NCBI GenBank assembly: GCA_944989445.1
Contig: CALYLW010001097.1
Span: 380,671 to 444,670, forward strand
Direction of reading: 5' to 3'
Source: Ampullaceana balthica
Lineage: Eukaryota > Mollusca > Gastropoda > Lymnaeidae
DNA: 64,000 nucleotides
The first letter of the stretch is position 1, and each line of letters begins with the position of its first letter. Shown piece after piece: positions 1,735-51,500 of the stretch. Made by a program: the position numbers and the translations under genes. The notes below the pieces were generated by a model. The model ran no database searches, was not told where the DNA came from, and saw only the letters and a program-made list of their open reading frames with translations.

Positions 1735-4700
1735 GATGACTACATGGAGGCTCTGTCCAGGCTACAGATGGTGGTGACCAGAGCCCACAAAATCAATGAG
1801 AACATCAAGTTTGAGGTCTTCATCCACAAGGTTGATGGACTCTCTGATGATAATAAGATTGAGACCCAGAGGGACATCTTACAGAGAGCGACTGATGAGC
1901 TGGCGGATGCTGGAATGGATAATATCAGGCTCAGGTACTTTGTTACAACAATTTTTTATGGATAATATCAGACTCAGGTACTTTGTTATAACAATTTTTG
2001 AGGGATAATATCAGACTCAGTTACTTTGTTATAACAATTTTAGGAAATTTTTTACATTGAAAGAATTATTTATGAAATTATGACCCCCTTTCCAGTCCAT
2101 GACGGGACTATGGGGCAAGTGAAGTAGCATTCACAAGTTTTTAGCCACCATTAACGAGCAGGGGAATGTGTGGCCAGCACAATGCCCAGGGGCCTGCCAG
2201 TACCCGGGCTCAAACCCGCGACTCGGGATCTGCCTCGGATCGATAGTCCAGTGCGCTACCACTTAGACCATCGCGCCCCCCATGAAAGAATAATATAAAA
2301 ACAAATTTTTAAAGTTGAAGGGACATTTTTTTTACTTGAATGAGCTGTGTGTAAGGAAGGATGCACTCAGTATTATAACATATTACAATGACACTACACG
2401 CCCCGCGGCGTAGCATACGCCGCAGACTTGCTCATGGAGAGTGCAAAGAAAGTGGAGAAGGAACTGACACAAACTACAGCACGAAGAAATCAAAACAACG
2501 CGAGTGAACGTGGGTTTGGGGGGGAGTGTCTGCCAACTCATTGTTGGTTTTCGAGACATTTGCAGCCGAAATTCGGTACACCCCTAACTTCTATGAAGTC
2601 AGCTGTAAAACGATAATCTGTTTAAAATCGGAGTTACATAATCGATAATTGGTTTTCCAAATAAAAAAACAAAAAAAACCACGCAATTAACAACCCTAAA
2701 TATGACTAACCCTCGCTAGGGTCGCCAATCAGTTTATGTTTAAGGGATGGTAATATTAAATGGGAGGTGGGTAACAACAACCTCAGTGTACATGTCTTCA
2801 CGTTTACTGGTTATTTTTTATTTACTTGGTGCTGCTTTTTGTGTCTGTACTCTCAAACCCCCCCCCACCACCAACCGTTCTTTGCACTGTCTATGATGAG
2901 CAAGTCTGCGGCGTATGCTTTGCAATAAAGGGGTAAAAAGAACGGGCACAGACATTTTTAAAATTTTTTAAAAATTAATGTATTTGCTGGGGCTTGATCC
3001 CAGGACCTTGCCGCATGAGGCGGACGTGATAACCAGTACACTACGAATCTCACGTCCTTCTGTGAAGGAACAATGCAAGTGAAACGCAAGGACCATTGTT
3101 GGTAACCCCTCCACTACCTTCGCTTTCCAACCGTTCTAGACGCACTGTGGCGTAGCTTACGCCGCAGACTTGCTCATAGATAGTGCAAGAAAAAAAGGGT
3201 AGTGGCAGAACGGACACAAACAGTAGCACGAACAAATGGGAACAATGCGAGTGAACGTTGGGGGACCACAGAAGCATTTTTGGTAAGTATTTCGGACATC
3301 GCCACAATATATAAACAAATATTACAGCCATGAAGCCAAGTTGGAGAGCAACAACGTCGTCCATGAACGAAATATGCGACCAATAGAAACAGACAGGTAC
3401 CTGGTGAAGGAATTGATATAACATTGAACTAAGCTTTTTTCCGTGACATGCGAAGCGGTGTTTATGTTTGCTAAGAAAGGGGGGAAAAGAACAGGCATTA
3501 GCGTTTAATTTTTAAAAATTAAAAAAAAACATATGTTGCCGCTTGGGCTTGAACCTAAGACCTTCCGCATGTCAGGCGGATGTAATAACCAATACACTAC
3601 GAAATACATACACACTGTGCAGGAACATCAAAAGTGAATGTAAAAAACATTGCTGGTCTCAAGACATGCCCCAACCCACCACTACCTTGGTTGCCAAACG
3701 TTAACTGTGTTTAGTTGACCCCAGCGAGGGTCATTCGTCATGCTCGGATGCACATACTTGCAGCTTGCCTCCCATGGTCCTACCATGAAGAGAATTATAT
3801 ATATAGATGTGTTAAAGTATTCGGCTTGCAAGTTGTAAGCTGTTTTGGAAAAATCAGAGAGTGGACAATTATTTTCTATTTTATAAGTTAGCATTTTTTG
3901 TGTAAAGTAATTTAACAAAAATCAGTTCAATCTGAATGCTAGTGCATAACCCGTGGACATAGAAGCAACATTACAACCTCACATTATGAACAATAAACTT
4001 GTTAAAAACTATATTCACTATAGTTGTATTCCTTGTATTCACTGTGGTTGTATACCTTGTATTCACTATGGTTTTATTCCTTGTATTCACTATGGTTGTA
4101 TACCTTGTATTCACTATGGATGTATTCCTTGTATTCACTATGGTTGTATTCCTTGTATTCACTATGGATGTATTCCTTTTATTCACTATGGATGTATTCC
4201 TTGTATTCACTATGGTTGTATTCCTTGTATTCACTATGGTTTTATTCCTTGTATTCACTATGGATGTATTCCTTGTATTCACTATGGATGTATTCCTTGT
4301 ATTCACTATGGTTGTATTCCTTGTATTCACTATGGATGTATTCCTTGTATTCACTATGGTTGTATTCCTTGTATTCACTATGGTTGTATTCCTTGTATTC
4401 ACTATGGTTTTATTCCTTGTATTCACTATGGATGTATTCCTTGTATTCACTATGGTTTTATTCCTTGTATTCACTATGGATGTATTCCTTGTATTCCCTA
4501 GGGTTTTATTCCTTGTATTCACTATAGATGTATTCCTTGTATTCACTATGGTTTTATTCCTTGTATTCACTATGGATGTATTCCTTGTATTCACTATGGA
4601 TGTATTCCTTGTATTCACTATGGTTGTATTCCTTGTATTCACTATGGTTGTATTTCTTGTATTCACTATGGTTGTATTTCTTGTATTCACTATGGTTGTA

Positions 4701-7700
4701 TTCCTATTCAGCAGTTGTTTCAACTTCTCTGTTTAATCCATTTTATTCCTTACTCTTATTTAAATTCATAATTTATTAATTATGTTTGAAGTTAACAAAA
4801 TATGCTGCTGAAAAACTCAAACATTGCCTTATTTTGTGACCTTCGTGGCTCTAAACTGATTTGTTTTTTTATTTTGTTCCTTTCAGTTTTCATCTGACAA
4901 GTATTTACGACCACTCCATATTTGAAGCCTTCAGCAAAGTTGTGCAAAAATTAATACCTCAGCTTGCAATATTGGAAAATTTATTAGACATTGTTATTTC
5001 AGTAAGTACTTGTTGTTTAAGTAAAAAAAGTAAAGAGCAAAATTATCAAAAAGTAATTAAGAATACATATGTTATTTGCTAGTTATTTGTTAGTTGAATG
5101 AGCTGCTATGTACCACACCCCGAGAAAAAAAAAGGTAAAAGATCCAATTATTAAAGGATAAATAAGAATTGTTTTGTCTTTCAGCCAGTTTGAACAAAAG
5201 CGGTGGAAAGTTATTCCATGTTAATCCATGTTTTTTTATGTTGCTTAATTTCAGAATTCAAAAATTGAGAAAGCATTTCTCTTTGATGTTGTTAGTAAAA
5301 TCTACATTGCCACAGACAGCTCCCCAGTCGATATGCAGTGTTATGAGTTGTGCTGTGACATGATTGATGTTGTCATTGATATGTCATGTATATATGGGTG
5401 AGTAGATGTTAATATTGTCATTGATATGTCATGTATATATGCGCGAGTAGATGTTAATAAACCTCATTTTCATTTATGATTTTTGCATATAATTGAACTG
5501 CCATAATCGTAATTCATCAAATATCATAGTGCTTTGATGCTTCTGCCATCAGTTGTAAAGCTAATGGGGACTTAGTGGTTATTAGTTAATTATTTCAAAG
5601 TTTTAAGTAAGTGTCATATAATTTAAGGTCACGTATTACACAGATTTATTTACTCTTGTGTATTTTACAACTATTTACTTTTTTAGATTAAAATTATTAA
5701 AAAAAACATGTTAAAGTCAATTTTAGCTCTTTTTCACATCCAGCAGTGTATTACAAATTTACATCCATATTTAGTGTTCCTTAGAAGTGTACTTGTGCAT
5801 TAGTGTACATAGTAGGGATAAAGGGGTAGTGCTTAATATGTTTAAAGTTTAAAAATCACAAACAATTTATAATGATGAGGAATGTCATCACTTTGATGCT
5901 TTCACAATAACTTATTCAAAGTACTTCCTTCTGCTGCTTATTAAATCTAGTACTTCATATGCTGCTTATTATATCTATTACTTCATATGCTGCTTATTTA
6001 TATCTAATGATCTAAATCAAAATCTAAACTTGCTGTCTGGATCTATTGAGAATGTATTTGAGAAATGTAGTTCTTTCCCTGAAAGCAAAAAAAAATTTAA
6101 AAGCTTTTTGCTTAGTGTATTTAAAAAAAATAAAAATCACCCAGCAGTTGTATAGTTTTAAAAACCCTATAAGATTATAATAAACATTTTCTGATAGTAA
6201 AATCAGGTTCTTAGGCAAATCAGCGTTCAGCAGAGTTAAATATTTTGACTCATATGAGGCCTTCACAATTAACTTATTTCTTCACTCAATTTAAAATAAT
6301 TTTAATTTATTGGATTAAATTGCATTTGAAATATATATAATATATAGAGATCAGTTTTAAAATATATATAATATATAGAGATCAGTTTTTAAAATATATA
6401 TAATATATAGAGATCAGTTTTTAAAATATATATAATATATAGATATCAGTTTTTAAAATATAAATAATTATAGAGATCAGTTTTTAAAATATATATAATA
6501 TATAGAGATCAGTTTTAAAATATATATAATATATAGATATCAGTTTTTAAAATATAAATAATTATAGAGATCAGTTTTTAAAATATATATAATATATAGA
6601 GATCAGTTTTAAAATATATATATAATATATAGAGATCAGTTTTTAAAATATATATAATATATAGATATCAGTTTTTAAAATATAAATAATTATAGAGATC
6701 AGTTTTTAAAATATATATAATATATAGAGATCAGTTTTAAAATATATATAATATATAGAGATCAGTTTTTAAAATATATAAAATAATAATATATAGAGAT
6801 CAGTTTTTAAAATATATATAGTATATAGAGATCAGTTTTTAAAATATATATAATATATAGAGATCAGTTTTTAAAATATATATAATATATAGAGATCAGT
6901 TTTTAAAATATATATAATATATAGAGATCAGTTTTTAAAATATATATAATATATAGAGATCAGTTTTTAAAATATATATAATATATAGAGATCAGTTTTT
7001 AAAATATATGTAATATATAGAGATCAGTTTTTAAAATATATATAATATATAGAGATCAGTTTTTAAAATATATATAATATATAGAGATCAGTTTTTAAAA
7101 TATATATAATATATAGAGATCAGTTTTTAAAATATATATAATGTATAGAGATCAGTTTTTAAAATATATATAATGTATAGAGATCAGTTTTTAAAATATA
7201 TATAATGTATAGAGATCAGTTTTTAAAATATATATAATGTATAGAGATCAGTTTTTAAAATATATATAATATATAGAGATCAGTTTTTAAAATATATATA
7301 ATATATAGAGATCAGTTTTTAAAATATATATAATATATAGAGATCAGTTTTTAAAATATATATAATATATAGAGATCAGTTTTTAAAATATATAATATAT
7401 AGAGATCAGTTTTTAAAATATATATAATATATAGAGATCAGTTTTTAAAATATAAATAATTATAGAGATCAGTTTTTAAAATATATATAATATATAGAGA
7501 TCAGTTTTTAAAATATATATAATATATAGATATCAGTTTTTAAAATATAAATAATTATAGAGATCAGTTTTTAAAATATATATAATATATAGAGATCAGT
7601 TTTAAAATATATATAATATATAGATATCAGTTTTTAAAATATAAATAATTATAGAGATCAGTTTTTAAAATATATATAATATATAGAGATCAGTTTTAAA

Positions 7701-10700
7701 ATATATATATAATATATAGAGATCAGTTTTTAAAATATATATAATATATAGATATCAGTTTTTTAAAATATAAATAATTATAGAGATCAGTTTTTAAAAT
7801 ATATATAATATATAGAGATCAGTTTTTAAAATATATATAATATATAGAGATCAGTTTTTAAAATATATAAATAATAATATATAGAGATCAGTTTTTAAAA
7901 TATATATAGTATATAGAGATCAGTTTTTAAAATATATATAATATATAGAGATCAGTTTTTAAAATATATATAATATATAGAGATCAGTTTTAAAATATAT
8001 ATAATATATAGAGATCAGTTTTTAAAATTTATATAATATATAGAGATCAGTTTTTAAAATATATATAATATATAGAGATCAGTTTTTAAAATATATGTAA
8101 TATATAGAGATCAGTTTTTAAAATATATATAATATATAGAGATCAGTTTTTAAAATATATATAATATATAGAGATCAGTTTTTAAAATATATATAATATA
8201 TAGAGATCAGTTTTTAAAATATATATAATGTATAGAGATCAGTTTTTAAAATATATATAATGTATAGAGATCAGTTTTTAAAATATATATAATGTATAGA
8301 GATCAGTTTTTAAAATATATATAATGTATAGAGATCAGTTTTTAAAATATATATAATATATAGAGATCAGTTTTTAAAATATATATAATATATAGAGATC
8401 AGTTTTAAAAATATATAATATATAGAGATCAGTTTTAAAAATATATATATAGAGATCAGTTTTTAAAATATATAATATATAGAGAGCAGTTTTTAAAATA
8501 TATATAATATATAGAGATCAGTTTTTTTTAAATGACTTTTCTGATAAAAATACTTCAACATTGCTTTTTTAAAATTAAAAAAATCATGGGTTTGGAAAGA
8601 GGGGGGGGGAGTGGAGCCTCGTATTACCACTTGGTACAGGCCATATCCTTTACACTACGATCAGTGATAATGGTTTGATATTTACTAGGCTATTTCTTTT
8701 GTTTTATTGACCATTACCATGCAGTGATGAGCAACTTTGAGATACTCGAGTTTATACAGCAAAACAAAATGATACTATTTTGGGAGTTCCAGTGTAAAGT
8801 GGTCTGATATGATACTATTTTGGGAGTTCCAGTGTAAAGTGCTCTGATATGATACTATTTTAGTAGTTCCAGTGTAAAATGCTCTGATATGATACTATTT
8901 TGGGAGTTCCAGTGTAAAATGCTCTGATATGATACTATTTTAGTACTTCCAGTGTAAAGTGCTCTGATATGATACTATTTTGGGAGTTCCAGTGTAAAAT
9001 GCTCTGATATGATACTATTTTAGTAGTTCCAGTTTAAAGTGCTCTGATATGATACTGATATGATACTATTTTAGTAGTTCCAGTGCAAAGTGCTCTGATA
9101 TGATACTATTTTGGGAGTTCCAGTGTAAAGTGCTCTGATATGATACTATTTTGGGAGTTCCAGTGTAAAGTGCTCTGATATGATACTATTTTAGTAGTTC
9201 CAGTGTAAAGTGCTCTGAAAAGATCTAATTTTTGGGCCTCTATAGTTACACCTGAAATGATATAAGCTCTGACAGTTTTCAATATTTATTCCCTCGAGCA
9301 CAGTCTTAAGCTGATCAAAAATAATTCCATAAACTTATTTACTCACAGCGTACGGGACTTCTTGTTCTCACGGTAACATTTTTAGTCTCCTAATCCTTAG
9401 TTTCCCATCTTTCATCCATTTGTATCTTCACAAACCTATTTATGGCAAAAATATTAATATACAGGGAATTCATAGAGAGTTTGGGAATATAGCTATGTAT
9501 TTTGATATTACTTTTATGGGTTGTTGTTTTTTTTCCCATACTCCCTTCCCCCTTTCAAATTTACTCTTTTATTGGGCAACATTTGGAACGAGTAATTTTT
9601 CTTCTCCTCATATATTAATCATCATATTATATTTTTAACAAGTTATAGAGGTTAAGGCTTTGATCTTGAGTTGTGCATTCATTTTTGTCAAACATCACGT
9701 AAAAATAGATTAGCTATGCTTCAAAGTTAAAACTCATTTCAAATTTAAAGTGATTTATCTACCAAAGGCATTTCATGACATTCTCGATTTGACGTAATTT
9801 CATTTCATTAAATTTGGATGTCAGAAGGTATAAACCATTTAAATTTTTCAAGTTTCAAACCTCTTATGATATGATGAACTCTTAGGTCATCCCCAATACA
9901 GGGTCATATCTAGGGAGGGTCAGAACTAAGGAATGTGTTCTAGGAACCATTACAAGTGTTCAGAAAATTGTATATCTCCCTCATCACCTGCACCACCCTC
10001 CGCATTGAATGGACTGGACGGTCTTCCAACCACTACAAATATATACCTTGTACCTGAGTCTTCCAACCACTACAAATATATATACCTTGTACCTGAGTCT
10101 TCCAACCACTACAAATATATATACCTTGTACCTGAGTCTTCCAACCACTACAAATATATACCTTGTACCTGAGTCTTCCAACCACTACAAATATATATAT
10201 ACCTTGTACCTGAGTCTTCCAACCACTACAAATATACCTTGTACCTGAGTCCTCCAACCACTACACTACAAATATACCTTGTACCTGAGTCTTTCAACCA
10301 CTACAAATATACCTTGATTTCTTCCCTGAACAAATAAATTTAGAATAGGACTGCGATAAAGCTTTTAAATAAAATACAAAATTTATTGTTTTCATTACAC
10401 ACTTTGTTTGTGTATATATATTTTTTTTATCTGAACAAATGAAACAACTGATTATAAATATGAAGATTATCTTTAACAGAATAAAGAAAACTTACTTCAA
10501 TTTTTTTTTCTATTTTCATGTCATAGATGTTTTTTTAAATATTTTTACAAAAATTAACTAAAAAAATTGTATTCAACAAACTTTAAAAAATTTGAATAAT
10601 TAACTCTTGTCAATTAATAAGTCAGAAACTTACTAATCATTTGGTTCAATAAAATTACAATGTATACATTTATCAATCCATTAAATGATATTATGATACT

Positions 10701-20285: not shown

Positions 20286-21764
20286 CCCCTAGTTATATTA
20301 TATCCTCTTATTATTCTGTCATAAATTAATGGGTTTTCAATAATCTACCACTTAGTGTTGACAAGTCAAAAATCACTCAAGTGGTACTTTACTCTAGGGT
20401 TGACAGCGCTCAGGCAAAAGAAGGGCATATCTTTATTTTTAACGACTTTCATTTTCCTTACTTATTTGTGTTTTTTTTGTTGGGTTGATATCCTAAATGC
20501 ATTAAATCTTTTATGACATTTGACTTTATTCCAAATGTTTTTACTATTTCTTGTGGTGCTAAATAACGAGGCAGTGTCATTGTTCAGAAAAAGTGTCATA
20601 GGTTGGCAAAGGGATGGGGTGTGAACAATTTTAATGGCTATTTATGTACATAGTGTTTGTCAATTGTTTAAGGTATGACTACATCCCTGATAGCTGTAAG
20701 TGCCGTTATGCCACGGGGTCATTTTGAAAGTTTATATTCATAGTCTCTTTAAACTGATGAATTAGTCTATTATCAGCCTCTTTTTTTATACAATTTTGGT
20801 CAATCTCTAATACTAATGGGCTATTTCCGAAGATTAGGTATTTTTAGTATGCACCAACTTTGAAATTTTTGTTGAAGTACCTAGAAATAGAAGGAATTTG
20901 GAAATACAAATTTAAAGATTACACAACTTAAGAAACTAAAAGTTATAACAAATGTGTAAAAGACTTGTATCATAGACTCACTAAAAGGTAGCAAATAATT
21001 TCATTTCCTTTAAATGTGTTTCTCTAAAAAAAATTGAAAAAGATTTCAGGCTGTTATGTTTATTTACATAAAAAGAGTTTTAAGTTTTTCACATGCAGTG
21101 TTCATTTATATTTATTGGTCACTGGAGACAATTGTTATGTAAATTTTGGAGGCATTTAGAGAAGTGTAGGTAAAACTTGTTCTTTTATTTGAGAAAGCTT
21201 TGAGCAATCTCTACCCTTCACAGAAAAGCTGCTATTGAATATTCAACTCAAATGATTTTTGTAATGAACCTAATATAATGACAGCCCGGGGTACCTTTTA
21301 AAACCTTCAACAAATTGGTGTCTGGTAACTAGAATAAAGATTTTGGATACTTTTCAGTTACTAGTTATTTGAATAAAGATCTTTTAAGTACCCTTCAGCA
21401 TTGGTTAACTGAACCCCCCTGATATGAATAAATCACAAACTGCTATTGAGAATAAATTTATTAAACAAAAATAAGATAAAATTAAAATGCAAATGAGAAA
21501 CTGTTATAAAAAATATAAAAATTTAATTAAGGTAGTCCAAAAGTCTTTAAAAAAAATATTACCAGTATACTTGAAATTAATCTTGGAGCTAAAAAATATC
21601 CTAATAAATATCCTGACCAGTAATGAGCAACTACACATACTCATTACTGTTGAAAATCTATTTTTGTTTGTGATAAAAGTTTCTTGATATATAGTATAAG
21701 ACAAAGGTTATAACATATTTTCTTTCTCAAGACTTTTTCAGATTTCACCAATCATCACCTAGCA
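20286..21764. other. Upstream region of EEF1D, no other gene seen
   Basis: AT-rich sequence. A TTTTTCAG acceptor-like site at about 21734-21741 could mark the start of an exon containing the EEF1D start codon, which would put a 5' UTR intron upstream. The antisense ORF pair near 21487-21704 shows no recognisable domain. Confidence 0.4.
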
Positions 21765-30700: not shown

Positions 30701-33700
30701 TATATTTGTAGATTTTCAATTTTTTTGCAAAGAAAAATTATAATTAAAATTCAATTTAAAATATACTGCTCTACTACATTACACTAAAAAAATATTATAT
30801 CTCAGTAAAAAAAAAGTGTACAGTCATAGAAAGATAAGACTAATCTTTCATTTCAAGTGCCTAAAATTAATTTAATTTCCATTTCAGAGCCAGCTCTTAT
30901 TGCTAAATCAAGTGTTCTTCTTGACGTCAAGCCATGGGATGATGAGACTGACATGGCTGAAATGGAAAAGAGAGTTAGAGCAATTGAACAAGATGGCCTT
31001 GTGTGGGGAGCTTGTGAGTAACATTCAAAATTTATTTTGTTGTCTACATTTTTTTTTACAAAGAATCAAGTGGGTAGGCTCCGAAAAAATTTCTTTTACC
31101 AACTTAAAATACAAACAATTCCACAAGATACACCAAAAAATTGTGTGATCAAAACAATAGCTTAAAGCTTTATTAATTGACTAATACACAAGTAAACATT
31201 TTGATTAATCCCTTCATCTGTACAAATAACTTACACAAGTATTAAAATTAAATAATACATGCAATAGTGTACAGGTCAAATAAACACAAAAAGGTAAAGA
31301 AGAAAGATGGACACAGATATAAGAAAAGGCAAGAAGTATCAAACGTTCTTATTAAGGTTGTTAAGACCGCTCGTTTTTGAGGACCGGTTAACCTTTCAAA
31401 AAAAGACCGGTTAACCGGTTAGCCGCTCCGTATTTATACAATTTATACCATGTTTAGTGAACCAACAAGAGAATGGATCAAATTTTCCCATCGCGTGCGT
31501 CGTCGTTTAATTTGACATCAAAGAGCCCGTGATGTACCGACTCTAGTGTTGCTGTCAAAACAGCGAATTCAAAAAAAAATAAATCCCCAACAAAGAATTA
31601 AACTGTAATGATATTCAATTTTTATATAATAATAGTATTAAAACGGCATATTATAAATTGTTGTCAAGTCAGTTTGTTTTTGAGGACCGGTTAATCATTT
31701 TTTAAAAAGCCCGTTTTACTGAAAAGAATATTATTATTATTAAGAAAACGCTTTGATTTTGACGTCACGGTCGCTCGCGTGTTGGCTCTGGTATTCTGCC
31801 GTAACACAACACAAAATTAACTCCGGGTAATAAGCTAATATACCACGTAATTAGCTAATATACCGACTAAATGAAGTTACGATTAACCAGTCCTGATAAA
31901 ACGGAGTAAACAGTGATAATAAGATGGAATTTATTTAAATTAAATACCATATTTTGTTTCACTCGTCAACTTGCCAGAATTACGCGCACACGACGACCCC
32001 CCCCCCAACCCAATAGGGTGGGGTATAGGTGGGGTTGAGCTACACTCGCCATTTTCCAAGGCATGCTCTGACTCAATTTAAAAAGAAAAATGTTCCTTCC
32101 CCCAACCCACTGTAGATGTATAACAGTGGGTGAGGGGAGGAAAGGTGTCTCTTGGCGCGGTCTTGTATTGGCGTGTCAAAGCAAGAGGCTTCCTGTTACG
32201 TAAACATCAAAGACATTTCAAGCCTTCTAGCCTCCCCCACCACCCTCATCCCTAACTAGAAAACTCCGTAACTTGTCCCCACCCCACCCCCACCCCCGTC
32301 CTTTTGAGTTGACCGTGGTTCTCATGAAGCTCTCATACAGTGCCTCGACAACTAAGCAAATTAAAATTTAGCATTCCTTAGCCATAGGCGAAGTAGACTA
32401 ATAGTGATGACGTGTATATTATTTAGATACCAGAATAGGGAGAAAGCGATTTGAAGTCAACTCAACACAACAAAAACAGAACTCCTGGATAAAAAGCTAT
32501 TACGGGCTTATTAAAGTTGCGGGGGGCCTTATTGAATTTGCGGTTAACCGATCCTGAGTAAATAGGACCGGTCCTGATCCGAGGACCGGCTAACCGGTTA
32601 ACCGTTAACAACCTTAGTTCTTATAGAAGAACTGAAATGAAAAATGATGGTGATGAAGATAAACCTAAACGCTTTTTTGCATTTTTCTTTTTTTAAAGCA
32701 ACATGGTCATTGGGATTTAGTATATTATTTAACTGTACCAGGTGCATGGCCTTCATCTTCCATAACTTTACTTGATGGTTTGGTTTCATCAAAACCAAAT
32801 TTAAAAAAAAATTAATTTAATTTTCACATACATAAATTGTGCTGTTTAAGAATTATTTTTATCACCATTTCTAGCAACTTAACATGGTTATATACAAAGC
32901 TCAATCTAGTCCACTTTTGTCCATAACCTTTAAAACCACATTTGGATGACTAGGTATGTTTCCAAGGTCATCACTGAAATTGAAGCATAAGTAAAATTGC
33001 AGCACTGCCATGTAGAAACTTTTGTATATCCTTTAATTAGCTCTCTTTTTGGCCTAGTTGTGTCAAAATTTTTGTCTATTTTAACTTTAATATTTGGTAA
33101 AATAACTCTTTGCAATATTTCTACTTTAAAAAACATATCAGTTTAATACTTTCTATCAGTAATAGGTTTGTGTGGTTTAGATGGGTTTTAAAATTTATTA
33201 TAGAATAATAAATTGATTTTTTAAAAGCCTTTTAACTTTAAAATTAAGGATAATTTTCTTAATCTTGTAGAGGAGTTAAACAAACAAATCACTTACAAAC
33301 TGATAAATAAATTTTTTAAAAAAAAGGAATTAATTAAGAAAAAGAATTATGTATTTAGCTGTATTTCAAGTCATTTTCAATTTGTCCATACCAATGCAGA
33401 CGATAATAAAAAATGCTTTGCATTATTATCAAATCTGTTTAATATTTCCTCTATAGAATTATTGATACAGAGCATTAACTTTCATTGCACTTTTATTCTA
33501 TGTGGGATTGGACTAAATAAATTACTTACTGATCTCAATTAGCCTACTAGCATTGATTATATATTAAAAGCTAAACATTAAAGTAACACCCTTTATAAAA
33601 CTTATTATAATTATACCTAACTTACAAGAATTCTGTTTTGCACATATATTGATTATGTCAATAATTCCATGCTGCAATGCAAAATGGAAATCCAGAAATT

Positions 33701-36513
33701 ATATTTCCAAGAAGTAGTTTGACCTTGTTTGCAGCTTGACTGACCTCTGCTTGACTAAATATATTTATTTTCATAGTCATCATATTATAGCCATTTTCCA
33801 TAATAATAATGTTTTTCTAACATAAAGGTAAATGAAAGATACTAAAAATAGAATTACCTGAGTCCAAAAAATGAATTATACTTGAACTGCCAATACAAAT
33901 ATTATTGAGTTGGATTATTATTATGTTATCCTATTATATAAACCCATGGTGTCCAAATGCATTGATGTTTTGAGTAGGGCCAACATGGCATGGCAGCAAT
34001 GATTATTATTTATACGTTTACTGTGAATTTAGGGGATTTCTTAGTCCCCTTGAATCTCTTCCTATCAAATATTAATATCCAGCTTTTACTTTTACCACAT
34101 CAACGAAGGTGTAAGTGTACAATTTCACATTAAAATCTGTTGATGATCTTGTTTGAAAATTGCAATAATGTAAACAGAACAGTCATCTTAATTGTGAATA
34201 ACCCACCTGAACAACTACTTTGCGCAATAATTGTTTTCATCCTAATTTGTGAATAACACACCTGAGCAAGTAGTTTGCGCAATAATTGGTTTCATCCTAA
34301 TTTGTGAATAACACACCTAGCAAGTAGTTTGTGAAATGGGTGTCATTCTAATTTGTAAATAATCCACTTAAACAGCTAACTTGCGCAAAGTGTTCAAGCT
34401 AACTTGCGCAAAGTGTTCAAGCTTCTTTCTCTTTAGTTTAGACCAATGAAAATGTGTAAAATAATGGATCCAATTATCTATGGAAAATATAGTCACTATT
34501 TTTTAACTCTAAATATAAAAAACTATTTGAATTAACCTTCCATTTAAAAGACCTTAATAATTGAATGTTGTGATATAATTAAATAATGTCTTGAACTTTG
34601 TTTGCTATTATAATAGTTACCTCCTATTTAGACCTATATATTGTGAATTATCTTGACTTCCTAAAAAAAAGTCAATTTTTAAATGGAGGTAAAGTGTTTA
34701 AAAGAAAGTATACATGCTTATGTTATTAATTCTATGGTTGTTAAGCTTCATAAAAATTTTAAAAATGTAGGCCTCTACCCCTAAGTAAATGCATTGAAAC
34801 TATTCTTTAAAAAATGCTGGGGCATTAGTAAAAATGTATATTAAGATATAAATTATTATTATTGTGTTTCCTTCAGCCAAACTTGTTGAAGTTGGATATG
34901 GCATCAAGAAACTTACCATCATGTGTGTTGTGGAGGACGACAAAGTCAGCATTGAAGATCTGTCTGAAAAAATCACTGGCGAAAATGAAGATTTGGTAAT
35001 GAGATGCATACTGTGATATTGAACCTAATTTGAACTTTTAAGAAAATGAAGTTGACACACCTCTCTTTCTACCTTTCTTAAAACTTTCTTTTTGTCTTTT
35101 AAAAGCCTTTTTATTTAAAACAAGCCCAGCAAAAAAGGGTTGGCTAATTCTGAAAATTATTACATTTTCTACAGGTCATAGGTATTTTAACTCATTCGCT
35201 ACTAATGCGACTGAATGCGACATACCCCCCTCGCTACTAATGCGCCCAAATGCGACATGGCGTCTAGCAACGCGCATATAAAAAATGATCCCGCGAGAAG
35301 CATTGTTACCGTGCGAATAGCTCTCGGCTTTTTAAAAAGTAGAAACATAGCTGATTTCGTTTAAAAAAAACCGGATGTTTATGTCATTTACGGTTCAAAA
35401 GCTGTGTGGCTTAGAAGTCGGACACTATTTGGTGAAATTTGATCGTGTGGTTTCTGAATATTCTTATACAATGGCCTTTCATTATCTTTACTCTTTAATT
35501 GCTGCTTCAACGTTTAATTATGCAGCAGTTAATAATTTAAACAATGAGGAATCAGATGTTGAAATTAGTGATAGTGATACTGATAATAATTAACTCTTAA
35601 CTCTAATCAGAGTGACGCTAACGAGAGTTATGAAATGAAGGAGATACTGTCACTAGTGTCACTGAATCTTGGTCAGACAATTTGATTAGTGTTACAGACA
35701 ATTTAATGAAATTACAGGGGAAATCATTTTCTCCCTATTGACAGCAGTCTCATAGACTACTTCAAGCTTTTCATGAACTCTGCCATGATTGAGTTGTTAA
35801 TTGCTGAAACAAACATTTACGCTGAACCGCAGCAAACGGCCAAGGGTAAGAAGGACGCCCTGTGGAAGGAGGTTACTAATGAGGACATATATAAATTCCT
35901 ATACATTGACATCATGATTAGCCTCAAGTAACCAATTACAAAATTGTATTGGTCAGTGGATTAGATGTTTCTCAAAGTTTCATGAGACAATAAATTGACA
36001 AAAAGGTGACAAACAACGGAGGTCGCATCCCAAAACAGCGATGTAAATTTTCAAAAAACACTTTTCAAGATTTATTTCAAATATATTTGTGAATTAAAGT
36101 GCATCAACCTATACATTTTTTTAAAGCTCATTCAATTTTCTGTTTTTTGGTGTGTGTTTTGTTATTTTAAAATTTCATTTAGGTGTTTAAAAATATTTTT
36201 ATTTAACATGGGGGTGCATGTTTTTGAGAGTAATCTCCCTTTGCTTAGTATTTCAGGGGGTGTTTTGGTTATTGCGCTTAGTAGCGAATGAGTTAAATAC
36301 CCCTGTACTATTGCAAAAATCCTATGCTATTGACATAAAACAAAAGTTAAAACAATTATTCAGAACACAAATAATCCTCAAAAATTGAAATTTGATCCAT
36401 GTTATTTTTATTTCATTTCATTGGTTATCATGAAGCAATTTTTTTATCCACCAAATTTCATATTCTCCCCTCAGGTACAAAGTGTTGACGTTGCAGCATT
36501 CAACAAAATCTAG
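21765..36513 (+). CDS. EEF1D: Elongation factor 1-delta (eEF1B-delta), complete
   Basis: Guanine-nucleotide exchange subunit of the eEF1 complex, which reloads eEF1A with GTP during translation. Eight exons, 21765-21872, 24675-24758, 28050-28125, 28362-28534, 28718-28781, 30888-31013, 34877-34995 and 36475-36513, join in frame to 262 aa. All introns are GT-AG. The N-terminus begins [17 protein letters not shown], the delta form and not the GST-like N-terminus of eEF1B-beta. A heptad-type helix around [16 protein letters not shown] is the leucine-zipper segment. An Ala/Pro-rich linker and an acidic [14 protein letters not shown] region follow. The C-terminal exchange domain has [17 protein letters not shown] and the usual ending AFNKI. 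At 262 aa it is slightly shorter than the 281-aa human form. A poly(A) signal follows at 36555. Intron 2 and later introns hold several transposons. Confidence 0.96.
22218..22593. mobile_element. hAT-type MITE, 376 bp, 8-bp TSD
   Basis: The element begins TAGGGGTCTAC and ends GTAGACCCCTA, an 11-bp perfect inverted repeat. It is flanked by the direct repeat ATGTATAT (22210-22217 and 22594-22601). The 8-bp target duplication and the TAGGGGT termini are typical of hAT elements. It is non-autonomous, rich in CGATAT/GATATC words, and lies in EEF1D intron 1. Confidence 0.85.
23675..24060 (+). repeat. Dispersed repeat, copy 2, with internal ~85-bp duplication
   Basis: Matches the repeats at 20033-20285 (inverted) and 45850-46190. 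The segment from AAAATATAAGCTAAAACAAT to ACTGCTATGGAC occurs twice in tandem, at about 23840 and 23934, so this copy carries two TGACGTCA palindromes. It lies in EEF1D intron 1. Confidence 0.8.
26020..27480. mobile_element. pogo-like (Tc1/mariner) non-autonomous element, 1461 bp
   Basis: The left end CAGTGGGGCTCGCTTAAGTC and right end (reverse complement CAGTGGGGCCCACTTAACTC) are inverted repeats flanked by TA on both sides (26018-26019 and 27481-27482). CAGT...CTCGCTTA ends with TA duplication fit the pogo group. No transposase frame is visible. The interior contains other repeats, including a segment near 26250 and 26800 that resembles the hAT element at 31353-32616. It lies in EEF1D intron 2. 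Confidence 0.8.
29005..29263. mobile_element. Palindromic MITE, 259 bp
   Basis: The ends CATATGAAGACCTCAAGGGA and the reverse complement of the right end, CATATGAAGAGCTCAAGGGA, match for about 45 bp with few mismatches. The interior is AT-rich with no ORF. The transcript of this intron could form a long hairpin. The target duplication is unclear. It lies in EEF1D intron 5. Confidence 0.75.
29264..30190. other. EEF1D intron sequence, possible unclassified repeat
   Basis: The stretch 29370-29990 has more CpG and GC than the surrounding intron (for example TAATGCGCGCCTTGTCTC), which suggests an inserted element. I could not find its ends or any coding frame. Confidence 0.35.
30195..30432 (+). 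mobile_element. tRNA-derived SINE family 2, plus-strand copy
   Basis: The head has an A-box-like GGGTAGCGAAGTCAATAGTG and a B-box-like GGGATCGAGCCC. The body reads GTCCTCCGCTGACCTGGAGA and ATGTTCTAATGGAAACATTA. The same order occurs inverted at 46684-46903. It lies in EEF1D intron 5. Confidence 0.8.
31353..32616. mobile_element. hAT-type non-autonomous element, 1264 bp, 8-bp TSD
   Basis: The left end TAAGGTTGTTAAGACCGCTC and right end (reverse complement TAAGGTTGTTAACGGTTAAC) are inverted, and both ends are rich in the word ACCGGTTAACC. The flanks are the perfect 8-bp direct repeat GTTCTTAT (31345-31352 and 32617-32624). No transposase frame is visible. C-rich and G-rich tracts lie around 31996-32290. 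It lies in EEF1D intron 6. Confidence 0.9.
32625..34192. other. EEF1D intron sequence, no feature seen
   Basis: AT-rich intron sequence with no recognised repeat or coding segment. Small ORFs at 32598-32798 and 32930-33136 (-) show no domain. Confidence 0.55.
34193..34405. repeat. ~58-bp tandem repeat, 3-4 diverged copies
   Basis: The unit contains GTGAATAACACACCTGAGCA and AGTAGTTTGCGCAATAATTG. The first two copies are close. The third and fourth are diverged or shortened, ending in a small AGCTAACTTGCGCAAAGTGTTC duplication at about 34375-34425. Confidence 0.8.
35191..36292 (+). mobile_element. Decayed piggyBac element, 1102 bp, TTAA TSD
   Basis: The ends CTCATTCGCTACTAATGCG and CGCTTAGTAGCGAATGAG are inverted and flanked by TTAA (35187-35190 and 36293-36296), the signature of piggyBac insertion. 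Inside are an acidic N-terminal-like frame (35375-35593, ending in Asp/Glu/Ser-rich residues) and a transposase fragment (35734-35931). It lies in EEF1D intron 7. It is too short and too broken to be autonomous. Confidence 0.9.
35734..35931 (+). pseudogene. piggyBac transposase fragment
   Basis: The reading frame gives [20 protein letters not shown], then LIAETNIYA, and [20 protein letters not shown], ending in TAA. This order matches the start of the PGBD transposase core (the DYF.LF...I..I..ETN.YA and W..VT..E...FL families of motifs). The catalytic Asp residues further downstream are absent, so this is a truncated relic. Confidence 0.8.
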
Positions 36514-37152: not shown

Positions 37153-37224
37153 TGCCTCCGCAGGGGATCGAACCCTGGATCTTCGGTTTACGAGACCGAC
37201 GCCTTACCACTTGGCCACAGAGGC
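37153..37224 (-). tRNA. tRNA-Thr (anticodon CGT)
   Basis: A 72-nt minus-strand cloverleaf can be drawn. The acceptor stem GCCTCTG pairs with CGGAGGC with one G-T wobble, and the discriminator is A. The D-arm has the A-box TGGCCAAGTGGTAAGGCG. The anticodon stem CGGT/ACCG encloses loop CTCGTAA, giving CGT. The T-arm is CAGGG-TTCGATC-CCCTG. A T6 run, a Pol III terminator, lies about 15 nt downstream. It is intronless and lacks encoded CCA, as in eukaryotes. It lies between EEF1D and UNC45. Confidence 0.85.
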
Positions 37225-39150: not shown

Positions 39151-39155
39151 TAATA

Positions 39156-42500: not shown

Positions 42501-45500
42501 GAAGAGACTCGGCCATAGAGCTGATAACCAAGAATATCACATCAAAAGATGGTTTAGATTGGACGAAGCCTTTTATGGATACACCAGGTATGTAATCTAT
42601 GACCCAGTTGAAATGTCAAATGATTGTATAATCAATTATCAAAATTTTGACTTAGTCAAAGCAATGGTGAACCTTTTATAATATTATTAAACCCTTAAAC
42701 TGCCAAGAACATTTTTCTGCAGCATCACACATGTTTTTGAGATATTTGAGACAATTTTGCTTTCGAAAATGTATTGTAATGGTTTTTTGTGTTGTTTTTT
42801 TTTCCAAACTATAATTTTGGTGATTTTTAACATTTAAATTCTCTTCCTTCAAATTTCTGTCTTAAAAGTACAAGGGAAGGGGAGCATGAAAACTTTTTTA
42901 AAAATTAATTTTTAATTAAAGCTATTTAATTGTTTTTATTTTGAGTGGCTATGACACCAAGAAAAGATTTAAATTGACAGTTCAGCAGCTGGTTCTGGGG
43001 TTAATATAAAAGTTTGTTTTGGAAAACTGACCAATGTTTAATGTTTGAATATGTCATTGTTAAGCTACTGATAATATTTCTATAATGAAATGTTGTGTTC
43101 TCTGTTGACAGGCGTCGAGAATCTGTTAACTGTGGCAGGTGTGCAGAAGGAGTTCAAAACCTTACAGATCACCCCACAGTCTGCAATGCACGCATCAGTG
43201 GCCTTGTCGAAAATCTATGATGACCTTATCAATGACAAACTAAGGGATAAATTCAAAGAAAAGTGTCATGAATATTTTCGGTAATTCAACTTGTTTTAAC
43301 AAAATGTCAATTTTAAATTGCAGTGGTTTGACTAGCAACTGATTTTCATTTCTTCCAGCCTTATCTCTGTTTATAGCCTCTCTATGGAAATACTTTTTTT
43401 TACTATTTAATTAAAAAACTTCCAAAGATTCCCTTTCTCTTTTTTAATATGTTTAAATTATTATTATTCTTTTTTTAAGATTTTAGGTGAGATGTAAAAA
43501 GAATATCTATTTAAACTTTGATTTTGATTAGTTTCAGCTTTTCAAAATTTTATTTATGGTCCAGAGATTAATGTTCACCTCTAATAGAAGCCTGTTAAAT
43601 ATCTGTTAAGTATCCCTTGGGTAAAAAGCAAGGTATGGCATACCATACGATAGACAGATACAGATCTCAGAAGCCTGTTAAATATCTGTTAAGTATCCCT
43701 TGGGTAAAAAGCAAGGCATGGCATACCATAAGATAGAAAGAGACAGATCTCAGAAGCCTGTTAAATATCTGTTAAGTATCCCTTGGGTAAAAAGCAAGGC
43801 ATGGCATACCATAAGATAGACAGATACAGATCTCAGAAGCCTGTCAAATATCTGTTAAGTATCCCTTGGGTAAAAAGCAAGGCATGGCATACCATAAGAT
43901 AGAAAGATACAGATCTCAGAAGCCTGTTAAATATCTGTTAAGTATCCCTTGGGTAAAAAGCAAGGCATGGCATACCATAAGATAGACAGATACAGATCTC
44001 AGAAGCCTGTTGAATATCTGTTAAGTATCCCTTGGGTAAAAAGCAAGGCATGGCATACCATAAGATAGACAGATACAGATCTCAGAAGCCTGTTAAATAT
44101 CTGTTAAGTATCCCTTGGGTAAAAAGCAAGGCATGGCATACCATAAGATAGACAGATACAGATCTCAGAAGCCTGTTAAATATCTGTTAAGTATCCCTTG
44201 GGTAAAAAGCAAGGCATGGCATACCATAAGATAGACAGATACAGATCTCAGAAGCCTGTTAAATATCTGTTAAGTATCCCTTGGGTAAAAAACAAGGCAT
44301 GGCATACCATAAGATAGAAAGATACAGATCTCAGAAGCCTGTTAAATATCTTTTAAGTATCCCTTGGGTAAAAAGCAAGGCATGGCATACCATAAGATAG
44401 AAAGATACAGATCTCAGAAGCCTGTTAAATATCTTTTAAGTATCCCTTGGGTAAAAAACAAGGCATGGCATACCATAAGATAGACAGATACAGATCTCAA
44501 TCAAATGAGATAATTGGGGCATTTTTATTTCTTTAGGGATCTCTTCTCAGACGGCATCTTTGAATCCAAAATTGAGGCTGTTGCAGCACTTTCTACATTA
44601 CTTCAGGTTTTAATTTTTTTTAAATAACCTTTAAAAACTGATAGGGTTATCTAATTTATTTAAGTCCTTGGTTTAACCAAAGAAGAAAAAAAATTTTTAA
44701 CCTCTGAATACTCTGATGATACAAAAACTTGATTATTGAAGGCAGGCCAAATATTATAAAAGTATTTAATTCTTTATTATAAGGAAGGTTATTTGTTTAA
44801 TTCATTTTTTAAAAAAAGATAATGTTATAAGTGAAATTTTTAAAAATTACGTTTTAGTCCCGTTTTCGCCTTTGTTATAAGGTAAAACTTGTTATATTTT
44901 TTTTGAGACATTCAATTCTGTTACCTTCAAGTTGAATGTCTATCTTCATGTACTACATGTTACCTTATTTAAGTTGAATGTCTATCTTCGTGTACTACTA
45001 CTTCTACTATATGTTACATTATTTTAAGTTGAATGTCTATCTTCATGTACTACTACTACTACATGTTACATTATTTTAAGTTGAATGTCTGTCTTCATGT
45101 ACTACATGTTACCTAATTTAAGTTGAATGTCTATCTTCATGTACTACATGTTACCTTATTTAAGTTGAATGTCTATCTTCATGTACTACATGTTACCTTA
45201 TTTAATTTGAATGTCTATCTTCATGTACTACGTATCACTATTTCAGGGTACATATGAAGTGGGCGGTATGCTCTTGGGTCTGGAGGGAGTAGTGCAGCTG
45301 ATGTTCACTTTGGCAGACAGTGACAACCCACATTTTCAGGTTAACATTTTCTTCCTTTTCATGAATTTTTTAAAAATCAGAATGCAATTATATATTTAGG
45401 ATGCACATTTATATTCCCATGTGGAGTTAGTTACATGTCATGTATAGAATTGGATTTGTGTAGGGCTGAGACTTGTAAGTTTGTGTTGATAGGGCGACAA

Positions 45501-48500
45501 ATAAGACTAATTTATATTGAAAACTTTTCATGTTATACTTTTTATGGCACATTTATATTGTAAATTATTTGTTGTGACAATTGATGATCTATTTGTAAAG
45601 AGCTGTGTCAGAGCTTAGGGCTAGGCATTTGTTCTCAAATATGTTGTGACAATTGATGATCTATTTGTAAAGAGCTGTGTCAGAGCTTAGGGCTAGGCAT
45701 TTGTTCTCAAATATGTTATAGAGGAATATTGAATTTTTAAAATGGTCTGAATTTCACATTGATCTATCAACATGACGAGTGTAACTAACAAAATAGGAAC
45801 AAACATTTACATCATGGATCATTTGTGTATCGCATTAATAACTAGGTGGTTCTGGGGCGCCCACTTTTTTTAGGGCACCTACGGCGCCCACCTTTTCAAA
45901 AGCCCAACTAACTTGTCCTTGTATGATAAATACGTAATATTTAACTTCCTGAAATGTACACAAAGTATTTTATAATAGGGGTTGCCACTTTTTTTTTGGG
46001 TCAAAAGCCCAAGTAACTTAAATACGAAATATTCCTGGAATGTACACAAAGTATTTTATATTTAACAATCCTGAAATCCTCTTTTTACATCGTTCCCTTT
46101 TCCAAAATTAAAATATGAGCTAAAACAATGACGTCATATAATATCTTTTTACAGTGCTAATCACACAACGATTTTTTAACTGCTAATGTTAATCTGGAAA
46201 CCAAAATGATTATGATTTTTAAGTCTATATTTTCAATTAAAAAAAAAGCATAGTGATGTCCCTTAGCGTTACTGAATGAGTGATAATTTAGGGCGTTTAT
46301 ATTATATATTTGTCTTATCAAACCTTTCTTTCCCTCCACACAGAAAGTTGCTGTGGAGGCCATTGTAAGCTCTGCTTCTAAGAAAGAAAAGTGCAGTGGA
46401 ATTCTGAAAGATGCTGTCCCTATTTTAAAGAAGCTCTATCAATCATCTGAGGACCACATCAAAGTTAGGGCCTTAGTGGTGGGTATTTTCGTTATCTTAT
46501 CACCAGATTCCTTCAAATATATTTGTTACCTTGGAGCCTCTTTGAGACTACAATCAGTATGAACTATGATGAAGTGTAACTGAAAATAAATATATACTGA
46601 CAGAGGAAATTAAGTATTTAAAATAATAAAATACTTCAACCTTCACATCACCAGCGGTAATAATTTTTTTGTTGTTTTTTTGTGTGACCCATAACCTTGT
46701 GGTCGTAGGGGGTTCTAATGTTTCCATTAGAGCTTCCTCGGGGCTTGGTAGACTTGGTTATACCCATCTCCTCTCCAAGTCAGCGGAGGACTTGTTAGCG
46801 ATAGTCATATATCAGTCTTTATAATGTGGCCTTAGCGTGGGCTAGATCCCACGCACCTCAGCTTGTGAGGCGAGCGCACTACTGACTTCGCTATCCAGCC
46901 GCCAATCATATTTACATATTTACAATAAATATCATGTGATATCTACATTCAATATTGTTAGATGTGTTCTCTGTATTAACTGAGGGTTTTAGCTTTTGAT
47001 TATAATNNNNNNNNNNNNNNNNNNNNNNNNNNNNNNNNNNNNNNNNNNNNNNNNNNNNNNNNNNNNNNNNNNNNNNNNNNNNNNNNNNNNNNNNNNNNNN
47101 NNNNNNNNNNNNNNNNNNNNNNNNNNNNNNNNNNNNNNNNNNNNNNNNNNNNNNNNNNNNNNNNNNNNNNNNNNNNNNNNNNNNNNNNNNNNNNNNNNNN
47201 NNNNNNNNNNNNNNNNNNNNNNNNNNNNNNNNNNNNNNNNNNNNNNNNNNNNNNNNNNNNNNNNNNNNNNNNNNNNNNNNNNNNNNNNNNNNNNNNNNNN
47301 NNNNNNNNNNNNNNNNNNNNNNNNNNNNNNNNNNNNNNNNNNNNNNNNNNNNNNNNNNNNNNNNNNNNNNNNNNNNNNNNNNNNNNNNNNNNNNNNNNNN
47401 NNNNNNNNNNNNNNNNNNNNNNNNNNNNNNNNNNNNNNNNNNNNNNNNNNNNNNNNNNNNNNNNNNNNNNNNNNNNNNNNNNNNNNNNNNNNNNNNNNNN
47501 NNNNNNNNNNATATAATGAATATAAAACATGAATATTTGCATTGATTTTTGTTAAACCAAGTTTTAATCCCTGAAAATGAAGTTTTACTTGTAATGATAT
47601 CTATTTTGGTTTATTTTAAAATTAACTTTTATTACACAGGGCCTGTGCAAACTAGGTAGCTTCATGGGAACTGATGCGAGTTCTCAACCTATGGCTGAGG
47701 GATCAACAGAGAAATTATCAAGGATCTGTAGAAAGTAAGGCTGAACATTTATTTCTGATTTTTTATTTAATTTTTTTTAAAATCATATCCATATATCATA
47801 AGCATAAGTAATGCTAAAAAAAAATATTGTTTAATTTTTACTAGTTTATTTTTTTTAACACAACATATCATTTTAGTTATTTTGTCATCTTTGAAATTTA
47901 GTTAATTACCCCAAACACGTAGATATAAAATTTTTACTCGTTCAAAATCAGATTCCTAGTGAATGCGACTAAAGATTCTGACCTTCGCAAATGGGCTACA
48001 GAAGGCTTGGCTTACCTCACTTTGGATGCTGACATCAAAGAAGAATTGGTGGATGATACTGCAGCCATCAAGTCAATATTTGACTTGGCTAAGGTTTGAC
48101 TTCACCATGATTACATTTTGAAAAAATCAGGATCATAAAATACCTATAAATACTATTACAATATCCAAAAAGAAAATAATTCTTACAACAATATTATTAA
48201 CAAAAATTATGGTTTTTCATCTTCCTAATGTGGGATTGCATGTACTATAAATAAATTTATTTTAAAAATGTTTTTCCACCTTAAGACTATTAACACACAA
48301 GTGTATATTTTTATTTAGCCAGTTAGGTTACAGTCCAAAAAGAGAGTATTTTAAATATTAATGTTTGCCTCTCCCTGTTTCAATAAAAATATTTTTGAAA
48401 GAGAGAGGTAACTTAAGCTCAATATGAACAATTTTTTTTTGGTACTAAACCTTTTTATCATTGGACATAAAACAACAAAATACTTAAGTAAATAATTATA

Positions 48501-51500
48501 AATAAAGAAACAATTCAAAATAATGTTTAAAATATTTAATAAAAATAAGAATGCATAAATTAATGTTGCATGCTTTGGAAAACTGTTTTAAATTATGTTA
48601 AGTGCCTCTTTTTACATGTTTGCATTTAATTTAATCCCTGGGGAAACAAACAGTCTTTAAACCTCCCACTTTATTCCTTTCCTGATTTTACGATAAATAC
48701 ACCTGAACAACATATTTTCTCATCAGATGTCAGACCGCAATGTCACATATGCAGCTGTGACCGTCCTCGTTAATTGCACAAACAGTTACGACAAACAGGA
48801 CATCATGCCTGAACTGTTGGAACTGGCCAAATTCGCCAAGCAACATGTCCCGGAGGAACATTCAAAAGTTGGTGTTTTTGTGTGTTTTAGAATGTTTACC
48901 GGTATTTACTCGCTTATAAGCCGAGTTTAGAACTATAAAATACAATACTGAAGTCAGGGGGTCGGCTTATATCTGTATAAAACAAAATGGACACAAGGAC
49001 AGACACTAAAATGTATAATTTTTTCTAAATGTATACTTCGTTAATCATCAGTTGTGAGAAACTTATGAGCGGAGGTTCAGATATCATTATAGCAAATAAT
49101 GTGAAAAGAGCGGAACACATTTTTGTGTCATTCCAAAGGGTAAACAAACTGGTATGTAACAGAAAAGTAAGCATTTTACATATTTAAAGTAACAAATTTC
49201 TATGAACCAAAAATATGGAGTAAAATTAGACAATTGTATGGTTGGCTTATATGCGGGTTTTGGCAAAAAACTGGCCATTTTAAAGCAGTTTTAGGGGGTC
49301 GGCTTATATGCGATGTAGGCTTATATGCAAGTAAATACGGTAACTAAATTAAAAAACAATATTATACAATCGTTGTGTTTAGTTTAAGTATTATCTAACT
49401 TTATGCCATTCTGTGTGGTAATTCAGTTTTCCTTTTAATTGTCAGGATAAAGGTGAATATATTTCTGGAAGAATTCAGAAGTTGGCCAAGGCTGGAGTCA
49501 TAAATGCCCTTGTTGCTTTATCAGATACTGAGAGTAAGAACAGCAGAGAACTCATTTCCAGGTAAGATATGTTAACTCACTTTTGAAATAAGAACAGTAG
49601 AGAACTCTTTTCCAGGTAAGGTCTGTACGCTCACTTTTAAAACCATCAGAACACGTGGTACATTTTGCAAATAGTCTTTCAAGAGAAGACTTATTACAGG
49701 AATACTTATTTGATTTTGAGACTTTGTACTGAAAGTAAGAACAGTAGAGAGCTCATTTCCATCTAAGATATGCAGACTCACTTTTAAAACCACCAAATCA
49801 CTAGTTACATTTTGCAAAAAGTCTTTCAATAGTTGACCTATTACAGGAATGCTTGTTTGATTTGTAGACTTTGTTAAGGCATTTGGTCGGTATAAGCTGA
49901 TTGACTGAAATACTCTTTGTTGTTACTTATGTCGATCAAGGAAGTCATTATTGGTTGATACAAAGGAAACAGTGACCTCATAAAATCTCCTGCGTGTCAA
50001 TTTTTTTTTATTGACGTGCCTAATTAATTTATTTCATAGGCTTCTGGCTCCTTCTGTTTTTTTAGTAACCATAACTTGTTGTCTTTATTTAGGGTGTTTA
50101 TGTCCTTGTCAACAGAGGAAACACTGAGAGGTCTCATCGTACAACAAGGAGGAATTAAGGTAATGTTGACAGTAGGACCTGTGTATTAACAGTACTTTTT
50201 AAATGGTGGTGTCAAACCTCATGTTAACATCTTTTTTTTTAAAAGTTCATTTAATGAGTTGACTAAAAATTATTATTTGTTTATCGTTATTTGCTTTCAG
50301 TGACTTCTTTAATTATTACATCTAAGGACAAAAATAATTTTGTACAAATGTTTTTTCCCCAGACCCTTCTTAACCTCATGAACAACAACACAGATAATGG
50401 AACTATTCTGGCGTCACATGCCCTCGCCAAGATCTCTGTCACATCAGATCCTCACTTTGCCTTTCCTGGCCAGAGGGTGAGAAATTTATGGCGTCAAATA
50501 AAAAATTTTTTTTAAGTATGATACTTAAAAGATAATCTTCAATTATATTTTTTAATCAGTCAGTTTATAACCCGCATTATATGGGTGAGACTGCAATCAG
50601 GCCTTTTGATTGTACAATATATATATTGTTTAAACAGGGTTTATATAGGCCTGACAGGACGTCACAGTGTATAACCCTCATTATCTATCTGTACTACTAG
50701 ATCTATGAAGTTGTCAGTATATAACCGTCATTATCTATCTGTACTACTAGATCTATGAAGTTGTCAGTATATAACCGTCATTATCTATCTGTACTACTAG
50801 ATCTATGAAGTTGTCAGTGTATAACCGTCATTATCTATCTGTACTACTAGATCTATGAAGTTGTCAGTATATAACCCTCATTATCTATCTGTACTACTAG
50901 ATCTATGAAGTTGTCAGTATATAACCCTCATTATCTATCTGTACTACTAGATCTATGAAGTTGTCCGCCCACTGCTGTCACTCCTCCATGCTGACAGGTC
51001 TGGCCTACAAAACTTTGAGGCCCTGATGGCATTAACAAACTTGGCGTCTGTCAGTGAGTCGGTCAGGTGAGTCTGTCAGTGAGTGGGTCAGGTGAGCAGC
51101 AGTCCTTGATGTGCTGAATAAATATAATATTTGGTTGATTCATCATATATGTAAAACAACTTTTTTAATTGCGAGTAAATTTGATCTCCTGTTTAAAATG
51201 GTTGTTAATATAAAAGTACAGTTTACACTTTTCTACCAGTTATCCCTCCTTACCCCCTACCCTTAATTTATTTCAGGAATCGCATTGTGTCTGAGAAAGG
51301 CATCTCCTCAATAGAACATTATATGTTTGAAGAACATGCCATGTTAAGAAGGGCAGCAACAGAATGTATGTGCAATATGTTGCTAAGTGAGCAGGTAAAC
51401 AAAATGTCATCAGTTGGCACTATAATTCTTCATGTTTTTAACTTTTGGTCTTAAATAGCTAGAAATAGTTGGGATTCCTTATATTTTCCTGGATGTGAAA

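Follow-up and report, generated by a model that had tools for sequence, protein, structure and literature searches.

Why do short tandem duplications lie repeatedly across exon-intron junctions, and must a process directed at these junctions be assumed to explain them? This question is raised by a stretch of 64,000 nucleotides (the window) of the gastropod Ampullaceana balthica (Lymnaeidae; assembly GCA_944989445.1, contig CALYLW010001097.1, positions 380,671 to 444,670), in which a sequence-only reading had reported five such junctions in two genes, RagC/D and UNC45. These duplications are probably minisatellite-like repeats of the type called mirages, which span an exon edge incidentally, are nearly neutral and do not need any targeting of junctions.

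All five reported duplications are present. They are detected by Tandem Repeats Finder, a separate ungapped self-comparison gives the identical five, and each array reaches 5 nt or more past a modelled splice junction in both directions (four donors and one acceptor). The arrays and the exons that they touch are as follows.

1735 to 1934, plus strand: RagC/D exon ending at a duplicated donor (spliced alignment to Biomphalaria RagC)
1915 to 2041, plus strand: array over the RagC/D donor 1934; unit of 43 bp, 3.0 copies, 94% (Tandem Repeats Finder)
5255 to 5397, plus strand: RagC/D exon ending at a duplicated donor (spliced alignment)
5370 to 5459, plus strand: array over the RagC/D donor 5397; unit of 45 bp, 2.0 copies, 95% (Tandem Repeats Finder)
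49446 to 49561, plus strand: UNC45 exon 14, ending at a duplicated donor (spliced alignment to Lymnaea stagnalis UNC45)
49535 to 49874, plus strand: nested array over the UNC45 donor 49561; 54-bp pair plus a 147-bp duplication that brings copy 3
50665 to 50965, plus strand: array over the acceptor of UNC45 exon 17; unit of 50 bp, 6.0 copies, 98% (Tandem Repeats Finder)
50951 to 51066, plus strand: UNC45 exon 17, with duplicated boundaries on both sides (spliced alignment)
51046 to 51096, plus strand: array over the UNC45 donor 51066; unit of 25 bp, 2.0 copies, 96% (Tandem Repeats Finder)

The RagC/D acceptor at 1735 was chosen manually to fit an AG and the reading frame, and its AG was verified. 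Two of the arrays are built differently from what had been described. The three copies reported at 49535 do exist, but copy 3 (from 49736) sits 93 nt past copy 2, so that they do not form a plain triplicate: a 54-bp pair (49535-49642; 2.0 copies, 85% in Tandem Repeats Finder) is overlapped by a 147-bp duplication (49584-49874; 82%) that duplicates copy 2 together with downstream intron. Likewise, the six copies reported at 50701 are real, but this position belongs to the first copy and the acceptor that keeps the frame of exon 17 is that of the last one, at 50951. The six units differ at 0-2 of 50 bases (copies 2 and 3 are identical, as are copies 5 and 6), a similarity that could reflect youth instead of homogenisation. 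Within the four donor arrays, units are separated by 1 to 9 differences. None of the arrays shows a match to its flanks past its own ends.

The five junctions stand apart from the others of the window. When a probe of 40 bases was compared with the surroundings of each junction, they scored 26-37/40, the next best of the 75 modelled junctions reaching 23/40; older degenerate duplications were sought at the remaining 70 junctions and none exceeded this value. The weakest of the five, 51066, scores 26/40 owing to a unit shorter than the probe (24 of 25 bases agree between its two units), and 9 of the 670 positions inside exons also reach this range. Four of the five arrays extend 0-1 nt beyond whole units (90 = 2 x 45, 108 = 2 x 54, 301 = 6 x 50 + 1 and 51 = 2 x 25 + 1) and the array at 1915-2041 (127 bases) is 2 nt short of three units, while two clean intronic pairs show a surplus of 4 nt (148 = 2 x 72 + 4 and 50 = 2 x 23 + 4). 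Overall, tandem arrays cover 18-19% of the modelled intron bases and 2-3% of the exon bases, depending on the threshold. RagC/D and UNC45 carry long intronic minisatellites at 6325-8526, 4012-4705, 8769-9218 and 43586-44499, with units of 32, 24, 40 and 83 bp.

At all five junctions, only the exon-attached copy is compatible with the reading frame and with the protein conserved in relatives. UNC45, encoded by 21 exons on the plus strand, shares 92.9% identity over 1069 aligned residues with its best match, the Lymnaea stagnalis protein P0001 (spliced alignment), and six exons of RagC/D lie in the window (modelled on Biomphalaria RagC by spliced alignment, with P0121 and P0122 as relatives). 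Neither spliced UNC45 (compared with P0001) nor spliced RagC (compared with P0121 and P0122) has any inserted residue at the array points. All the extra copies fall inside introns of the models, in which no duplicated segment appears as a new intron or exon. The duplications do create decoy splice sites, as had been suggested, and eight of these are intact: the donors at 1977, 49615 and 51091 (GTGAGC) and the five upstream acceptors of UNC45 exon 17 (50701, 50751, 50801, 50851 and 50901), which all retain TAG. The damage quoted for later copies was also found, GT being lost at 2020 (CAG/TTACTT, the slash marking the splice position) and 49762 (CAT/CTAAGA) and replaced by GC at 5442 (TGC/GCGAGT). 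Splicing at any of the eight intact decoys leads to an in-frame stop. By translation, stops are met with copies 2 and 3 at 1934, with copy 2 at 5397, 49561 and 51066 and with the five upstream acceptors of 50951; copy 3 of the array at 49535 lies downstream of the stops that copy 2 meets. A microexon route within the acceptor array was considered and rejected, the GT sites of its units scoring 0.8 or less.

The following model could account for these arrays. A segment of 25-54 bp would be duplicated head to tail over a splice junction, by what we infer to be general slippage or break repair. At a donor, the first copy would stay attached to the exon and the later ones would become intron; at an acceptor, the last copy would stay attached and the earlier ones would become intron. 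Splicing would then use the exon-attached copy. Since a complete boundary remains beside the exon, such an event would be nearly neutral and would survive, whereas an equivalent duplication lying wholly within an exon would mostly be purged. Because selection would spare junction events while removing most exonic ones, the former would build up in this minisatellite-rich region, and the surplus splice sites would decay at about the neutral rate. The overlaps at array ends, 4 nt in the two intronic pairs and 0-1 nt in all junction arrays but one, are too few to separate slippage from break repair.

The position of the arrays was evaluated against the 75 coding junctions of the modelled genes (36 donors and 39 acceptors), those of untranslated regions being left out. 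UNC45 contributes 40 of them, RagC 11, an eEF1B beta/delta gene 14, a Rab-like gene 4 and two FMN-reductase-like genes 3 each, the latter genes having also been placed in the window; Pfam matches were obtained for pieces of the Rab-like gene and for one FMN copy. The Rab and FMN junctions, the last ones of eEF1B and the first ones of RagC were positioned manually, guided by GT/AG and the reading frame. Donor 31013 was entered in the whole-array placement test as 31012, a position that no array touches. The first exons of RagC/D were not found within the window by spliced alignment and tblastn and presumably lie outside it; five aligner pseudo-exons at 297-1655, where tblastn gives no match, were discarded. 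For eEF1B, short pseudo-exons at 20641-21619 and 32116-33500 were discarded and the exons found by tblastn at 34876 and 36475 were used instead. The eEF1B exon 24675-24758 and the RagC microexon 9349-9372 were retained, though they are skipped by the alignments of P0244 and P0122, respectively. This microexon (24 nt, in frame, matching the Biomphalaria protein) sits between intronic minisatellites and may be optional, since the alignment of the Bradybaena protein (P0122) skips it. Intron 10 of UNC45 contains an assembly gap (N run, 47007-47510).

Several comparisons agree with an incidental location of the arrays. When whole arrays are shuffled in the window, 3.95-4.45 are expected to straddle a junction for 5 observed (P 0.34-0.47; sets of 25, 22, 17 and 16 arrays), and 5.29-6.04 are expected when they are shuffled in gene bodies (P 0.67-0.78; four thresholds). 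This null is too generous, since it allows long arrays to swallow exons, which selection would forbid. Placing single founding units of twice the present period gives an expectation of 2.22 (13-array list, P = 0.054). For short arrays, free placement gives 2.8-3.0 (P 0.13-0.16). Counted by bases, repeats scoring at least 26/40 occur at 5 of 75 junctions (7%), at 518 of 2538 intron positions (20%, a figure dominated by the long intronic arrays) and at the 9 of 670 exon-interior positions mentioned above. Intronic arrays are not significantly nearer to exon edges than random ones, with a median distance of 231 versus 431 expected (P = 0.13) and with 2 versus 0.98 expected within 40 nt of an edge (P = 0.26; hand list of 13 arrays in both cases). 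The state of the decoys can be read in the same way. GT is lost in 3 of the 6 later donor copies, the dinucleotide is lost in none of the 5 acceptor copies, and the neutral expectation derived from copy divergence is 1.11 broken donors (P of 3 or more = 0.075). Every site is intact in the arrays that are 96-98% identical and those that are 82-95% identical have one broken copy each. Damage thus follows the age of the array, which accounts for much of its pattern.

Other results weigh against a nearly neutral and undirected origin. Under a null that places one unit per array in gene bodies, provided that it is neither wholly exonic nor holds a whole exon, the expectation falls to 1.08-1.14 for the arrays of Tandem Repeats Finder (P 0.0035-0.0047), to 0.98-1.05 for those of the self-comparison (P 0.0019-0.0026; three sets of 15-17 arrays) and to 1.11 in RagC and UNC45 alone (P = 0.0029; hand list of 13 arrays). 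Short arrays whose exon overlap is capped at one unit give an expectation of about 1 (P 0.0007-0.0017). Chance placement in the window is strained by the unit null, which equates the present period with the founding unit. Moreover, later donor copies show 5 differences in the 18 sites of their G/GT core and 23 in the 246 sites outside it (Fisher P = 0.03), a hint that decoys are selected against; this core was picked post hoc, independence of the copies is assumed and two of them contribute two hits each. The placement tests, too, are post hoc: they concern a single window flagged for its junction pattern and five events, of which three fall within 1.6 kb. Junction arrays may exceed what intron density predicts, but this is unproven, and the local mutational habit that had been proposed is accordingly not established, the excess being about 5-fold under the unit null (P 0.002-0.005) and absent under the whole-array null. 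Similarly, the damage of later copies, which had been taken as a sign that extra sites are harmful, gives a weak signal (P = 0.075 when tested by copy and 0.03 when tested by site), and none of the five upstream acceptors is damaged; harm by extra splice sites is plausible, if weakly supported.

A process directed at junctions, for instance transcription-linked nicks or breaks near splice sites followed by fill-in and end joining, would produce extra duplications at exon borders. It would explain why 5 arrays are observed for about 1.1 expected under the unit null, and end joining would leave array ends like those of four junction arrays (0-1 nt, compared with 4 nt in the intronic pairs), but the fifth array, 2 nt short over its 127 bases, cannot be read as such a product. 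With a strength matrix built from the window's own junctions and leave-one-out scoring, the duplicated donors rank 1, 4, 11 and 16 of 36 (P = 0.039), a result in favour of this process. Under the unit null, 3 of 8 low-copy arrays of the self-comparison straddle a junction for 0.49 expected (P = 0.0096), and the arrays of more than 3.2 copies give 2 of 8 for 0.54 expected (P = 0.097). Neither the whole-array null nor the doubled units or the distances of intronic arrays bring significant support, the case rests on the same few clustered events chosen after the fact, and conservation of the exon-attached copy would prolong the detectability of an array at a junction and so inflate the count somewhat. 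A directed process therefore appears unlikely, although less so than the other alternatives.

The extra sites might instead be selected decoys, kept because they tune expression through unproductive splicing. The in-frame stops reached from all eight intact decoys fit this proposal, as does the weakness of the acceptor at 50951 (rank 38 of 39, i.e. the second weakest), with which the upstream copies could compete. Intron sequence, however, generally brings stops quickly, and the integrity of the decoys is mixed, which makes selection for them very improbable. With its six successive acceptors, all equal and weak, 50951 seems to be the locus where decoy use is most worth testing. As for an assembly artefact, copies could result from misassembly or from collapsed haplotypes. 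The assembly does have a gap at 47007-47510, the near identity of the six units of exon 17 means that their number could be wrong, and a comparable amphioxus array was misassembled in a draft (PMC3087553). The divergence between the units of all four donor arrays, the short units (25-54 bp) and the lack of similarity between arrays and flanks make an artefact extremely unlikely as the origin of the five arrays. Incidental, nearly neutral duplication thus remains the preferred explanation.

In the literature found, boundary-spanning repeats under the description of mirages come mainly from lancelets. With five of them within 64 kb of a protostome, existing snail genomes and RNA-seq would readily show whether duplication affects exon edges more often than introns and whether repeats of this type come before intron gain. 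Should a genome-wide excess at junctions be lacking, the case would still illustrate tolerance, the exon keeping one intact edge; if a junction-preferring process is real, it would provide a genome-wide supply of decoy splice sites and possibly of new introns.

The window contains several other features. The two neighbouring FMN-reductase-like genes (57113-57923 and 62911-63756, minus strand) are paralog-like, FMN_red being matched in 62911-63756, the only copy scanned. An open frame in the last eEF1B intron (35710-35928) matches the DDE transposase domain DDE_Tnp_1_7 with 21.5 bits, just under the curated cut-off of 22.4, and is perhaps a piggyBac-like remnant. A tRNA-Thr(CGT) gene lies at 37153-37224 (minus strand), and a weaker tRNA match at 3540-3601 (minus strand) is possibly a short repeat derived from a tRNA. 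By eye, 480-960 and 1000-1470, which precede the RagC/D exon, look like adjacent diverged copies of a repeat of several hundred bases.

How do these arrays compare with known systems? Tandem duplication of a segment that holds splice signals has reportedly been discussed as a source of introns by Gao and Lynch and by Hellsten et al. The snail duplications share with this process a duplicated segment holding splice signals but differ from it in that their extra copies lie inside existing introns, without any new intron in the models. In potato, a tandem duplication over an intron-exon boundary of the RdRp gene created a new intron (PMC4974935), and tandem duplication is reviewed as a mechanism of intron gain (PMC3443670). 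The suggestion that the snail arrays are raw material for intron gain or boundary shift thus agrees with an idea already published (PMC3087553, PMC4974935), but neither a new intron nor a shifted boundary is seen here. In human segmental duplications, variable internal tandem repeats at exon-intron boundaries can change gene structure (PMC2812944); this case concerns recently duplicated primate paralogs, whereas the proteins encoded by the snail genes appear unchanged. A large gene duplication in fish (PMC7605655) was set aside as a comparison. No report of boundary-spanning repeats in molluscs was found among the open-licence papers searched, and the available part of a study of cone-snail introns (PMC3862624) describes microsatellites in introns and no boundary repeat.

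The closest counterparts are the mirages of amphioxus, i.e. minisatellite-like repeats over exon-intron boundaries, which were named in this animal and described in its globin genes BflGb6 and BflGb9, with Adh3 (units of 10-72 bp) and other loci also cited (PMC3087553); troponin C and PGBD5 are further cases (PMC3902484). Mirage units range from 10 to 160 bp, mirages apparently leave splicing undisturbed, as reported for Adh3, globin and troponin C, and they were suggested as a route to intron gain (PMC3087553, PMC3902484). The snail arrays resemble them in that the unit crosses the exon-intron boundary in all five cases, in that their units (25, 43, 45, 50 and 54 bp) fall within this range and in that one intact boundary remains, so that a normal protein can be encoded. 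They differ by their host and their genes (RagC/D and UNC45) and are known from the sequence of a single assembly, while copy-number polymorphism, somatic instability and complementary DNA evidence are reported for the amphioxus mirages. It is rather doubtful that lymnaeids, like lancelets and independently of them in a distant phylum, have a mutational process with a preference for exon-intron borders when it duplicates short segments. The snail arrays can be regarded as a further occurrence of a known type of structure, in a phylum that is new for it as far as the literature search shows.

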